DNA from: a bacterium
Lineage (GTDB): Bacteria; Arandabacterota; Arandabacteria; Arandabacterales; Arandabacteraceae
Assembly: GCA_029933125.1 (NCBI GenBank)
Contig: JAOZOU010000008.1
Coordinates: forward strand, 69,234-106,197
Reading direction: 5' to 3'
Length of the DNA stretch: 36,964 nucleotides
Shown piece by piece: positions 4,884 through 29,549 of this stretch. Below the pieces are notes generated by a model. That model was not told the DNA's origin and did not search any database. It saw only the letters and a program-made list of their open reading frames with translations. Both the position numbers and the translations under genes were made by a program. Every line of letters starts with the position of its first letter. Positions within the stretch are counted from its first letter, which is position 1.

Positions 4884-4898
4884 GTAAGGAGAGTGAAG

Positions 4899-5843
4899 AT
4901 GGTTAGCAAAAACTCTGACAGGGCTCAACCCAGAAGAATTTCGATACGCGAGCGCACAAGCAAGGTATCAAAGGCAGACTTTGCTTCAATGCCTGATTCG
5001 TTTGGCTGGTTTGACAGCTTCAGGAAGATGATCCCGGACATCCTCGCAGGAAGGGACTTAAACGAGCTTGCAGACTCCATCGTTGAAGCTCATAGAGGAG
5101 GCAGATGTGTTGCTTTTATGATGGGAGCCCATGTGGTCAAATGTGGTCTCGGAGGGCTGATTGGTGAGTTGATTCGAAGGGGTATCGTTACGGCGATTGC
5201 CATGAATGGTGCGTGTGCCATTCACGATGTTGAGATTGCCCTCTGGGGGAAAACCTCCGAGGATGTAGAAACTGCGCTTGGAGAAGGCACTTTTGGTATG
5301 ACATCTGAAACTGTCACCTTCTTTGTTGATGCACTTTCCCTGGCAGCCAGGGATGCAATCGGAATGGGGGAGGCAACCTTGAGAACTCTGGCTCATTGCG
5401 ATCCTCCCAATCGCCACCTGAGTGTGCTTTCAGCGGCATATGAGGCGAAGGTTCCTACAACTATTCATGTAGCGATTGGAACCGACACTGTTCACCAGCA
5501 TGAGAGCATCGACGGCGCGAAATTGGGTATGGCAACTATGAAGGATTTTCGCCTGTTTTGTGATATAGTCAGCAACCTTAATAACGGCGTTATACTAAAT
5601 CTCGGTTCGGCTGTAATCATGCCCGAGGTTTTTCTCAAGGCATTAGCAACGGCTCGAGGCAGGGGAATAAGTGTCGGGGACTTTACCGCAGCCAACTTCG
5701 ACATGTATAGCCTATACAGGCCCACAAAGAACATAGTCGAAAGACCGCGTCTGCTAGGTGCAATAACCTACAATTTCCTTTCTCACCACGAGATTATCCT
5801 GCCCTTCCTTTTCGCTGCAATCATGGCCAAATTGACTAACTGA
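4899..5843 (+). CDS. divergent deoxyhypusine-synthase-like protein, catalytic lysine motif not found
   Basis: A 314-residue protein. A GTG at 4893 is also in frame, but AAGGAG at 4886-4891 sits 7 bases before ATG 4899 and only one before the GTG, so ATG 4899 is preferred. Motifs resemble the deoxyhypusine synthase (DHS) superfamily in order: MGAHVVKCGLGGLI (from about residue 75), AIAMNGACAIHD (NGACAIHD at 103-110), SVLSAAYEAKVP, MKDFRLFCDIV and NLGSAVIMPEVFLKALA. DHS enzymes use NAD and spermidine and carry a lysine in a late SWGKI-type motif. Here the corresponding region reads RLLGAITYNFLSHHE, with no such lysine. Bacteria lack eIF5A, so a different substrate is expected. The gene closes the LPS-type block. 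The comparison is from memory of the family, not a search; the substrate is unknown. Confidence 0.6.
   Translation: MVSKNSDRAQPRRISIRERTSKVSKADFASMPDSFGWFDSFRKMIPDILAGRDLNELADSIVEAHRGGRCVAFMMGAHVVKCGLGGLIGELIRRGIVTAIAMNGACAIHDVEIALWGKTSEDVETALGEGTFGMTSETVTFFVDALSLAARDAIGMGEATLRTLAHCDPPNRHLSVLSAAYEAKVPTTIHVAIGTDTVHQHESIDGAKLGMATMKDFRLFCDIVSNLNNGVILNLGSAVIMPEVFLKALATARGRGISVGDFTAANFDMYSLYRPTKNIVERPRLLGAITYNFLSHHEIILPFLFAAIMAKLTN
5704..5718. promoter_or_regulatory. 15-bp perfect palindrome, candidate enhancer-binding site
   Basis: TGTATAG-C-CTATACA is an exact 7-1-7 inverted repeat. It lies inside the 3' part of the DHS-like gene, about 155-165 bp upstream of the start point predicted for the sigma54 promoter at 5845-5860. 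That is the usual position for the upstream activating site of a sigma54 activator. A shorter repeat, TAGGT-N6-ACCTA, lies at 5755-5770. The palindrome is also coding, so coincidence is possible. Confidence 0.35.
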
Positions 5844-5964: not shown

Positions 5965-5988
5965 TTGCATATTGCAAGGGGCAATTGC
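5965..5988. repeat. cluster of short inverted repeats upstream of the sigma70-type promoter
   Basis: TTGCA-TAT-TGCAA (5965-5977) is an exact inverted repeat, and GCAATTGC (5981-5988) is an exact 8-bp palindrome. The two share the TTGC/GCAA half-site. They end 20 bp upstream of the -35 box at 6008, a position suited to a regulator of that promoter. In RNA made from the sigma54 promoter they could also fold into hairpins. Confidence 0.4.
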
Positions 5989-6007
5989 AGTCTGCGAATC
6001 GGGTACC

Positions 6008-6036
6008 TTGACTTAACGCAACCTATGTGCTATAGT
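6008..6036 (+). promoter_or_regulatory. sigma70-type promoter of the exopolysaccharide operon
   Basis: The -35 box TTGACT (6008-6013) and -10 box TATAGT (6031-6036) are separated by 17 bp. Each differs from consensus at one position. The predicted start is near 6043, giving a leader of about 180 nt that contains the structured region and terminator below. With the sigma54 promoter at 5845 it forms a tandem control region. Confidence 0.75.
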
Positions 6037-6042
6037 AGAAAG

Positions 6043-6176
6043 GTAAAAATCGAAGAAGGGAGTGGTCTACAAGGTAAGTTTGCTACTGTTGACTTGGGCT
6101 TGAAGGGCTCGGTGATTCACCGAGGACGGAGTGACTTTGAATGGCAAACTTACCTTTGGCAAATCCCCAGTATTGC
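6043..6176 (+). promoter_or_regulatory. structured 5' leader RNA, candidate riboswitch or attenuator of unknown class
   Basis: A perfect 13-bp inverted repeat pairs 6071-6083 (AAGGTAAGTTTGC) with 6144-6156. Inside it a second perfect hairpin pairs CTCGGTG (6108-6114) with CACCGAG (6118-6124) across a 3-nt loop. Immediately upstream, the purine-rich stretch 6052-6065 can pair without a break with 6193-6206, the 3' half and U-tract of the terminator that follows (14 pairs, four of them G-U). That would form an antiterminator. The layout is aptamer-like domain, terminator, then ribosome site. It does not match any riboswitch consensus I can recall, and I compared c-di-GMP-I specifically. The ligand or protein is unknown. 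Confidence 0.6.
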
Positions 6177-6206
6177 GGAATGGTGTGTTGCGCCATTCCT
6201 TTTTTT
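6177..6206 (+). terminator. intrinsic terminator directly upstream of the Wza gene (attenuator)
   Basis: GGAATGG (6177-6183) pairs exactly with CCATTCC (6193-6199). A G-U and a G-C pair extend the stem to 9 bp around a TGTTG loop, and seven T residues follow at 6200-6206. It lies 18 bases before the Wza start codon and 5 bases before its ribosome site. It can therefore only act on transcripts entering the operon, not on an upstream gene alone. Confidence 0.8.
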
Positions 6207-6223
6207 CTCTAGGAGGGTCTGAA

Positions 6224-6946
6224 GTGAAGCGCTTTCTTATCTTGGCAGCTTTGATTGGCCTTGTCATGGGTTGTGGATCCAAGCCGCAACCGTCCCTGAA
6301 CTTCCCGACCACAAATGAGATCAAGCTTCCCGAGAGACCTTCGTATAGAATCGCTGTAGGGGATCTCCTCAGCATCAAGTTCTTCTACTATCCTAATTAC
6401 AACATCAATGTTTATGTACGTCCTGATGGCATCGTGACTATACCTCTGCTCGGTGAGGTAAAGGCTGAAGGGATGAAGCCCTCTGAGCTCGAGGCTATAA
6501 TCAGAGCGAAATACAGTGAAGTAATTGCTGAGCCAGAGGTATCTGTGATTGTCAGCGAATTTGCTGAGCAAAGAGTTTTCGTTTTTGGTGAGGTTAAGAG
6601 CCCTGGAGCGGTTACCTACCTCGGATCAATGACCATTATCGATGCAATTGCTAATGCTGGTGGAGCACTGCCAAGCGGGCGTCTGAGTAGTGTCATTCTG
6701 ATGAGAAGGATGGAGGATGGTAAATACGTAGGGCAACGTATCAACGTCGATGAGATTCTTGGAAGTGAAAATCCCGATAACGTCTATCTTATGCCACGTG
6801 ACATCGTCTATGTACCGATGACTGCAATTGCTAAGGTGGACAAGTTCGTTGAACAGTTCTTCCACAGAATCACCCCCGTCTGGCTCTTCTATATCTATGG
6901 CGACAGGGCAATCAGGCAGAGTGGGAATGTGATAATCGGGCAATGA
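6224..6946 (+). CDS. Wza-type polysaccharide export lipoprotein
   Basis: A 240-residue protein. GTG 6224 is chosen because AGGAGG (6211-6216) lies 7 bases upstream and the protein then begins with a lipoprotein signal peptide. The hydrophobic run ends in VMG-C with the lipidation cysteine at residue 17. A polysaccharide export domain follows (about 40-115: YRIAVGDLLSIKF, YVRPDGIVTIPLLGEV) and then a SLBB-type segment (about 120-200: VFGEVKSPGAVTY). It is much shorter than E. coli Wza (about 380 residues) and has fewer SLBB repeats, as in exosortase-associated systems. Such proteins form the periplasmic/outer-membrane conduit for capsule or exopolysaccharide. It is the first gene of the operon and sits directly behind the attenuator. 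Confidence 0.88.
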   Translation: MKRFLILAALIGLVMGCGSKPQPSLNFPTTNEIKLPERPSYRIAVGDLLSIKFFYYPNYNINVYVRPDGIVTIPLLGEVKAEGMKPSELEAIIRAKYSEVIAEPEVSVIVSEFAEQRVFVFGEVKSPGAVTYLGSMTIIDAIANAGGALPSGRLSSVILMRRMEDGKYVGQRINVDEILGSENPDNVYLMPRDIVYVPMTAIAKVDKFVEQFFHRITPVWLFYIYGDRAIRQSGNVIIGQ

Positions 6947-6977: not shown

Positions 6978-8408
6978 ATGAATGGAACCGACACAGGTGC
7001 AGGCCAGATATCAGCTCGTGAAATCCTTACGGTCATCTTCAGGCGTAAGGTACCGATCCTGGTATGTGCAGTCGCCGTAGCTACGGCTGCTCTTACAGCT
7101 GCCTCACGGACAACATCGGTTTATCAAGCGACAGCTAAGGTGCTTGTTAGAAGAATGGGCGCCTCACCTTTGGCAACCACATGGACACCCTTCTATGGTC
7201 TCGAGGAGGAGATGAACACTGAAGTCGAATTGGTGACGACAGAACCTGTCCTGGAGAGAGCCGTCGAGAAACTCAAAGAGGAAGGCGTCTACATTCATGT
7301 AACAGCTGGTGATAGTGAGATCGTACGGGAACCAACAGTTGCAGATCTCCGAGGAGGCGTGTCAGCAACACCAGTTGAGATGTCAAATATAATCCTTGTG
7401 AGATTCACAGGTTCAGACCCCAAGTTTGTTAGCGAAGCAGCAAATGCGATAGCGCAAGCCTATGTCGAACACCGCATTCTTTTAAGGAAGGCTGGCAGCG
7501 CTGTTGATTTCTTCCAGGATCAGCTCAATGCACTTGAACAGCGGCTTCTTAAACTCAAACAGAGAGAACTTACTCTGCGAAAGCAGGGCCAGATCTATGA
7601 CCTTGAGTGGCAATACAGGGTTGCTATAAGTCGCAAGAATGACCTCGAGGCTAAGCTAGATGACGTTCGCAGCCAGAGGATAGCTGAGGAGCAAAAATTG
7701 AAGATGATAAAGCAGCGCCTGGCTGAAGACCCTGATCTGCTTGTGCCCTTCCCCAACTTTGTGCGAGACAAGCTAGGTGGGCACATGCTTTCAGAGTACT
7801 GGTCGCTCCATAAGGAACGCGACGCCCTCGCCTCGACGCTGACTGAGTCAAATCCCAAGGTCAAGATGCTGGACGAGCAAATTGCAAAGATGCGGCAACG
7901 CTTCCGCGAAGAGATACAACGCAGGATCAAGGAAAAGGAATTCCTACTCGAGGATCTCAGAGCTGAGGAAGAGGGCTATGAGAAGACAATACGGGAGATT
8001 TCAGAGCAGCTTAGAAAGACCCCCGATGTCGTCGCAGAAATCGAGCATTTGCAGAAGGAAATCTACTACACCTATTTCCACTACGACAAAGTTCTCGAGA
8101 AAATGCTGGATACGATGGCTTCCGAGGCAAATGACATAAGGATTTCAAACGCTAAGGTGATCAGCCCTGCACGCGCACAACTGACCAAAGCTGGCAAGAT
8201 GCAAACCGTTTATGTCGCCTTCTCGCTTCTTCTTGGCGTAACCCTCGGTATAGGCTTCGGTTTCCTACTTGAGAATCTGGATCACTCGGTAAAGTCAGCC
8301 GCAGATGTGGAAGACACCCTCGGTGTTCCCTTGCTCGGCTCGATTCCTGATAGCCGCAAGTTGCCGACATTAACGAGAAGTCTCGGAAACAGACGGACAA
8401 TTGATTGA
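6978..8408 (+). CDS. Wzz/GNVR-type polysaccharide co-polymerase (chain-length determinant)
   Basis: A 476-residue inner-membrane protein. One membrane segment lies near residues 26-43 and the second near 410-432 (AFSLLLGVTLGIGFGFLLE). Between them is a long periplasmic region with strongly charged heptad-like helices (about 175-370), typical of coiled-coil co-polymerases. The cytoplasmic tail (DVEDTLGVPLLGSIPD) is the segment that usually precedes or contacts the tyrosine-kinase partner. The family sets chain length with a Wzy polymerase. The neighbouring Wza and CpsD-like genes complete the usual export trio. A GGAG at 6964-6967 supports ATG 6978. The last stop base overlaps the next start (TGATG). 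Confidence 0.88.
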   Translation: MNGTDTGAGQISAREILTVIFRRKVPILVCAVAVATAALTAASRTTSVYQATAKVLVRRMGASPLATTWTPFYGLEEEMNTEVELVTTEPVLERAVEKLKEEGVYIHVTAGDSEIVREPTVADLRGGVSATPVEMSNIILVRFTGSDPKFVSEAANAIAQAYVEHRILLRKAGSAVDFFQDQLNALEQRLLKLKQRELTLRKQGQIYDLEWQYRVAISRKNDLEAKLDDVRSQRIAEEQKLKMIKQRLAEDPDLLVPFPNFVRDKLGGHMLSEYWSLHKERDALASTLTESNPKVKMLDEQIAKMRQRFREEIQRRIKEKEFLLEDLRAEEEGYEKTIREISEQLRKTPDVVAEIEHLQKEIYYTYFHYDKVLEKMLDTMASEANDIRISNAKVISPARAQLTKAGKMQTVYVAFSLLLGVTLGIGFGFLLENLDHSVKSAADVEDTLGVPLLGSIPDSRKLPTLTRSLGNRRTID

Positions 8409-29428: not shown

Positions 29429-29549
29429 TTTTTTTCGCATTGGAGCAAGTTTTGAAGGTTGATTGCTATCCTTCCACATTTTGCCGCGAAGATCTCATTT
29501 ATGCTGTGTCGGTCTGGCCTTTCTTAGTACGAGGGATAGAATTTTCGGG

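Follow-up and report, generated by a model that had tools for sequence, protein, structure and literature searches.

The window analysed here, a stretch of 36,964 nucleotides, contains a polysaccharide export operon on the forward strand. The first gene is a wza-like polysaccharide export gene (6224-6946) with a GTG start codon at 6224, harboring the Poly_export domain (PF02563, 4.7e-20) and an SLBB domain (3.5e-12). It is followed by a wzc/Wzz-like chain-length determinant gene at 6978-8408 (PF02706, 2e-07), a Wzy-like gene and a sugar transferase, while further downstream ORFs were read by inspection as glycosyltransferases. An energy-based detector located no more strong terminators within the operon. 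The gene upstream of the leader (4893-5843) gave sub-threshold matches only, to deoxyhypusine synthase (4.3e-05) and to an ArgZ-like Rossmann domain, and a neighbour of this type is also found upstream of wza in related genomes.

A sigma-70-like promoter (TTGACT-17-TATAGT, with an extended -10 of the TGN type), which the initial annotation does not mention, is located at 6008-6036 on the forward strand. Its elements TTGACTTA...TGNTATANT are kept at the leader in 5/5 genomes, and it is this conservation that supports the assignment, because a simple scan for promoters yields similar numbers of sites in shuffled sequences and in the window. The predicted transcription start lies at approximately 6043, 7 nt past the -10 hexamer, which coincides with the left boundary given in the initial annotation. 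The promoter is kept between genera together with most of its spacer (TTGACTTA...TTATGTGNTATA), beyond what plain sigma-70 recognition needs. Further upstream, at 5965-5996 on the same strand, counting and reading by eye led to TTGCA/TGCA half-sites: three of the five copies of TTGCANNNTGC in the window lie there, and TTGCA-like repeats were seen by eye within 60 nt 5' of the promoter in each of the five genomes (loci L009, L010, L011 and L040, and the window). These repeated half-sites are possibly an activator-binding site.

The predicted transcript begins with a short variable stretch and then bears the purine motif GAARGGAGUGRU(Y) at 6055-6067, which contains ARGGA, is near-invariant in the five genomes and can fold into a weak GGA(GUGR)UYY hairpin, whose 3 bp are kept in 5/5 with G-C/G-U changes. 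Next comes a long stem, recognised as an inverted repeat, by folding and in the alignment, with its 5' strand AAGGUAAGUUUGCUA at 6071-6085 and its 3' strand UGGCAAACUUACCUU at 6142-6156. The perfect 13-bp stem pointed out initially (6071-6083 with 6144-6156) is present and is lengthened by a U-G and an A-U pair to 15 pairs (6085/6142). No other perfect 13-bp inverted repeat whose arms lie within 150 nt of each other occurs in the 37-kb window, and random windows average 0.07. The stem encloses the 7-bp apical hairpin CTCGGTG-ATT-CACCGAG (6108-6124, arms 6108-6114 and 6118-6124), likewise as annotated; it is also found in the second genome of the same genus and is unrecognisable in the other genera. 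An intrinsic terminator follows at 6177-6206, detected both by a terminator scan and by the energy-based detector. Its hairpin (6177-6199) has a 3-nt loop and, according to the scan, 10 pairs instead of the nine first described, while the run of seven T at 6200-6206 was correctly noted. The stricter energy-based detector reports two forward-strand terminators in the whole window, this one and another at 29429 behind a tRNA, and a GC-rich hairpin followed directly by a U-tract is found at 6177-6206 as well as in the four orthologous leaders. Finally, the ribosome-binding site AGGAGG of wza was read directly at 6211-6216, where the annotation had it. Every element named initially thus exists, its coordinates agreeing to about one base. 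The fold of the leader is more stable than that of dinucleotide shuffles (z = -2.97), with 1/200 shuffles being as good.

Conservation and distribution of the leader

Eight genomes of the phylum (G000-G007) were compared, the host genome being G000 (3.23 Mb, 96.7% complete). The leader precedes the orthologous wza in 5/5 genomes having that gene, which represent four genera of one family, with one copy per genome and always at wza. Specifically, these are G000 (the window) and G001 (L009), both of one genus, G005 (L010, genome 73% complete), G003 (L011) and G004 (L040, genome 86% complete). Neither the orthologous wza nor the leader was found in G002 and G006, both of which are incomplete. In G007 the only wza is a distant one (33% identity) located at a contig end, so that the leader region of this genome cannot be judged.

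The same order is established in all five loci: TTGACTTA-spacer-TGNTATANT, about 12 variable nt at the start of the transcript, GAARGGAGUGRU and (A)GGUAAGYUUGCUAC, in which GG opens the 5' stem strand at +31 in 5/5. Between the stem arms lie 51-57 nt that are unalignable between genera, and then the 3' arm AUGGCAARYUUA. The terminator stands 22-27 nt past the long stem in every leader, carries 6-8 T and begins at +135 in four leaders and at +141 in one; its stem sequences differ between the genomes while its position is the same in 5/5. In alignment A1, 39/116 columns are invariant, and nearly all of these belong to the motif or to one of the stem strands. Between genera, the Wza proteins share only 51-54% identity. 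The sequence beside the transcript start is unalignable between genera, whereas the motif and the stem strands are near-invariant. With the loop and the terminator sequences diverged and the layout kept, selection thus acts on the motif, the stem and the presence of a terminator. The layout of a transcription attenuator, that is a promoter, a conserved leader RNA and a terminator upstream of the first gene, is found here and is conserved in the orthologues.

Searches for additional copies in the genome gave none beyond chance, whether by BLAST, by pattern or by covariance model. The exact two-arm stem pattern, scanned over 84,980 species genomes (a set that may omit the record of the window itself), recovered four of the five loci and one Methylococcaceae MAG; the latter (L060) bears the stem pattern without purine motif or promoter and was set aside as a coincidence. 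With the covariance model, the five training loci scored 97-118 bits and nothing else exceeded 20.5 bits. Among its weak extra matches, L076 and L077 resemble coding sequence in which the motif is coincidental, and L073 shows no motif. Three pattern matches in IMG/VR were also rejected, as the second stem arm is missing. Concerning catalogued RNAs, no Rfam 15 family, including GEMM, epsC/EAR and wcaG, gave a covariance-model match to the leader at gathering score and nothing relevant was found at E <= 10, the sole match at that threshold being a chance miRNA on the opposite strand (E 0.62). The initial annotation had judged the leader not to fit the c-di-GMP-I consensus. The leader shares with the c-di-GMP riboswitches (GEMM-I/II) and other terminator-coupled riboswitches a terminator resembling an expression platform before surface polysaccharide genes, but it has no Rfam match even at that permissive threshold, and its apical region, the expected place of an aptamer core, is variable between genera. 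No leader of such kind was found in the literature either. Judged by comparative sequence analysis, the leader RNA is real, under selection, uncatalogued and, on present data, confined to one family.

The long stem as helix, operator or coding sequence

All changes in the core of the stem keep pairing: G-C is replaced by G-U twice, U-A by U-G once and U-A by C-G once, while the outermost three pairs are broken in one or two genomes. The initial annotation had proposed conservation and covariation among relatives as the check. Conservation is evident in 5/5 leaders, whereas covariation is weak (one double change and three wobbles in five sequences of one family) as a consequence of the sequence conservation of the stem. 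The covariation score is matched by 196/500 shuffles, so covariation alone is no proof of a helix. Sliding the stem partner cuts the paired cells from 96% to 24-53%.

The strong sequence conservation of both arms with little covariation is also what a DNA operator would leave, in which case a transcription factor would bind the GGTAAGTTTGC copies near +31 and +100 and the terminator would be a separate insulator; the promoter and the upstream half-sites are conserved as well. We regard an operator as unlikely, however, since the changes in the arms are those which RNA pairing permits (wobbles and U-A to C-G), in G004 the spacing of the arms is changed by 5 bp (half a helical turn), and the spacing from stem to terminator is near-constant. 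On account of these wobbles, the altered arm distance and the near-constant terminator position, it is more likely that the conserved stem acts as RNA.

Attenuation by a leader peptide was also considered. An ORF of 5-8 codons could start from the conserved UUG in AGGUAAG(Y)UUGCUAC (approximately 6080 in G000), with ribosome stalling setting the fold, and direct reading indeed shows an SD-like AGGU five bases before this UUG and an early stop in its frame in all five leaders. The UUG is buried in the stem, though, no codon run is common to the leaders, and the invariant wobble positions point to constraint at the RNA level, all of which makes such a peptide very unlikely. A longer frame (EGSG..GKFAT) runs free of stops across the leader (6031-6222) in all five genomes; it was not taken as coding because it is not kept across the 3' stem arm, which is read in one frame in G000, G001 and G005 and in another in G003 and G004.

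Pairing of the purine tract with the terminator

The annotation had further described continuous pairing of the purine tract 6052-6065 with the 3' half of the terminator and its U-tract (6193-6206), and this is real in the window, where 14 pairs form a duplex of -19.1 kcal/mol that 0/1000 shuffles equal. Pairing of 14-15 pairs, perfect, is found in G000 and G001, hence in one genus. It is marginal in G005 (-14.0 kcal/mol, p 0.07) and absent in G003 (p 0.68) and G004 (p 0.50), being no better there than in shuffled sequence. The fold was expected to be mutually exclusive with the alternative one, which is true of the terminator; the long stem, by contrast, would be enclosed by the purine/U-tract helix and would not compete with it.

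These data bear on the possibility of a self-contained switch, where the purine tract would pair as just described and a ligand, a ribosome or a protein would select the fold. In G000 the energies of the two folds are close (-57.2 kcal/mol for the forced antiterminator fold and -58.8 kcal/mol for the terminator fold), as such a switch would have it, but in G001 forcing the antiterminator fold costs 12 kcal/mol, and purine tracts readily pair with U-tracts in any case. Since the purine motif is equally conserved where the pairing is absent, its function cannot mainly be antiterminator pairing. A switch of this kind is accordingly given a low probability. The attenuator layout first suggested thus holds in that a structured, conserved leader with a terminator is present in 5/5 genomes, whereas its antiterminator half does not extend beyond one genus, apart from the marginal case of G005.

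Putative mechanism and candidate factors

With moderate confidence, and from sequence evidence, we interpret the leader as a lineage-specific cis-acting attenuator RNA controlling the polysaccharide export operon. Transcription would start at about 6043, and RNA polymerase would make the 5' purine motif and next the long stem, to encounter the strong terminator some 25 nt later, just before the ribosome site of wza. By default, many transcripts would end near 6206. We postulate that a factor acting in trans, most likely a protein that binds RNA, recognises the stem base together with the 5' motif and, with a sign of action that is equally postulated, alters the fraction of transcripts that may read through into the long polysaccharide operon. 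Against this reading stand the weak covariation in only five sequences of one family and the conserved DNA, which might equally be an operator; moreover, no alternative fold linking stem and terminator is kept across genera. The leader is thus probably the switch for transcription of a costly polysaccharide cluster. If so, an uncatalogued regulatory RNA family would occupy the control point of a large polysaccharide locus, in a lineage for which metagenome-assembled genomes are the only source here, and an RNA of about 115 nt with its terminator would offer a testable handle on possible exopolysaccharide control without RfaH-type factors.

Indeed, a landing site for a NusG-like (RfaH/LoaP) antiterminator, as initially proposed, is extremely improbable. 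The idea has a precedent in the LoaP-dependent dfn and mln leaders of Bacillus velezensis, where an RNA hairpin and then an intrinsic terminator are located in the 5' leader of a long operon (PMC12691694), and the present leader is alike in having a hairpin and an intrinsic terminator before a long, costly operon. LoaP uses a small UNCG hairpin (PMC12691694), whereas the conserved part here is a long basal stem with a 5' purine motif, and no NusG paralogue was found: exactly one NusG is encoded in 7/8 genomes of the phylum, including G000, G001, G003 and G004, and none was found in the eighth, the 73%-complete G005. The copy in G000 lies in the usual housekeeping order tuf-rpmG-secE-nusG-rplK-rplA. 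The interior of the operon, being devoid of further strong terminators, also argues against a NusG paralogue.

Some RNA elements act on elongation, namely EAR (Rfam epsC) in the eps operons of Bacillus and the put RNA of HK022, which stands right behind its promoter. The leader resembles EAR in belonging to an exopolysaccharide operon and put in its position right behind the promoter, but it has no Rfam match, there are no strong internal terminators to read through, and any action on RNA polymerase is only putative. It seems doubtful that we are dealing with a new regulatory RNA class that dispenses with a dedicated protein and, through the 5' purine motif and the stem base, either senses a polysaccharide precursor or second messenger or acts on RNA polymerase like put and EAR. 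A search for ANTAR was silent, as were its controls.

Returning to a protein factor for the attenuator, CsrA is the best named candidate, although we hold this weakly. CsrA regulation of exopolysaccharide genes is well known, and CsrA/RsmA-controlled leaders include those of pgaA and psl. The present leader is similar to these in that ARGGA, possibly within a hairpin, lies close to its 5' end (at +15 in 5/5 leaders), and CsrA is encoded in most of these genomes, with two genes in G000 and csrA also found in the leader-bearing G001, G003 and G005. Binding of CsrA to this ARGGA might affect termination or translation of the export operon. Yet none was found in G004 (86% complete), a genome with the leader, most leaders have no more GGA/ANGGA sites than expected, and the invariant long stem and the GUGR after ARGGA would be left unexplained. 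The GGA is also partly paired in the predicted folds, the 5' hairpin being weak. With a long conserved stem and a terminator, the leader departs from the CsrA/RsmA-controlled ones, its CsrA site is a candidate only, and control of this type is on balance improbable. Concerning the two csrA genes of G000, inspection of their neighbours placed one (L083) beside FliW-like and flagellin-like ORFs and the other (L082) among ORFs read as a GspE-like ATPase, a STAS-domain protein and a sigma-54 activator.
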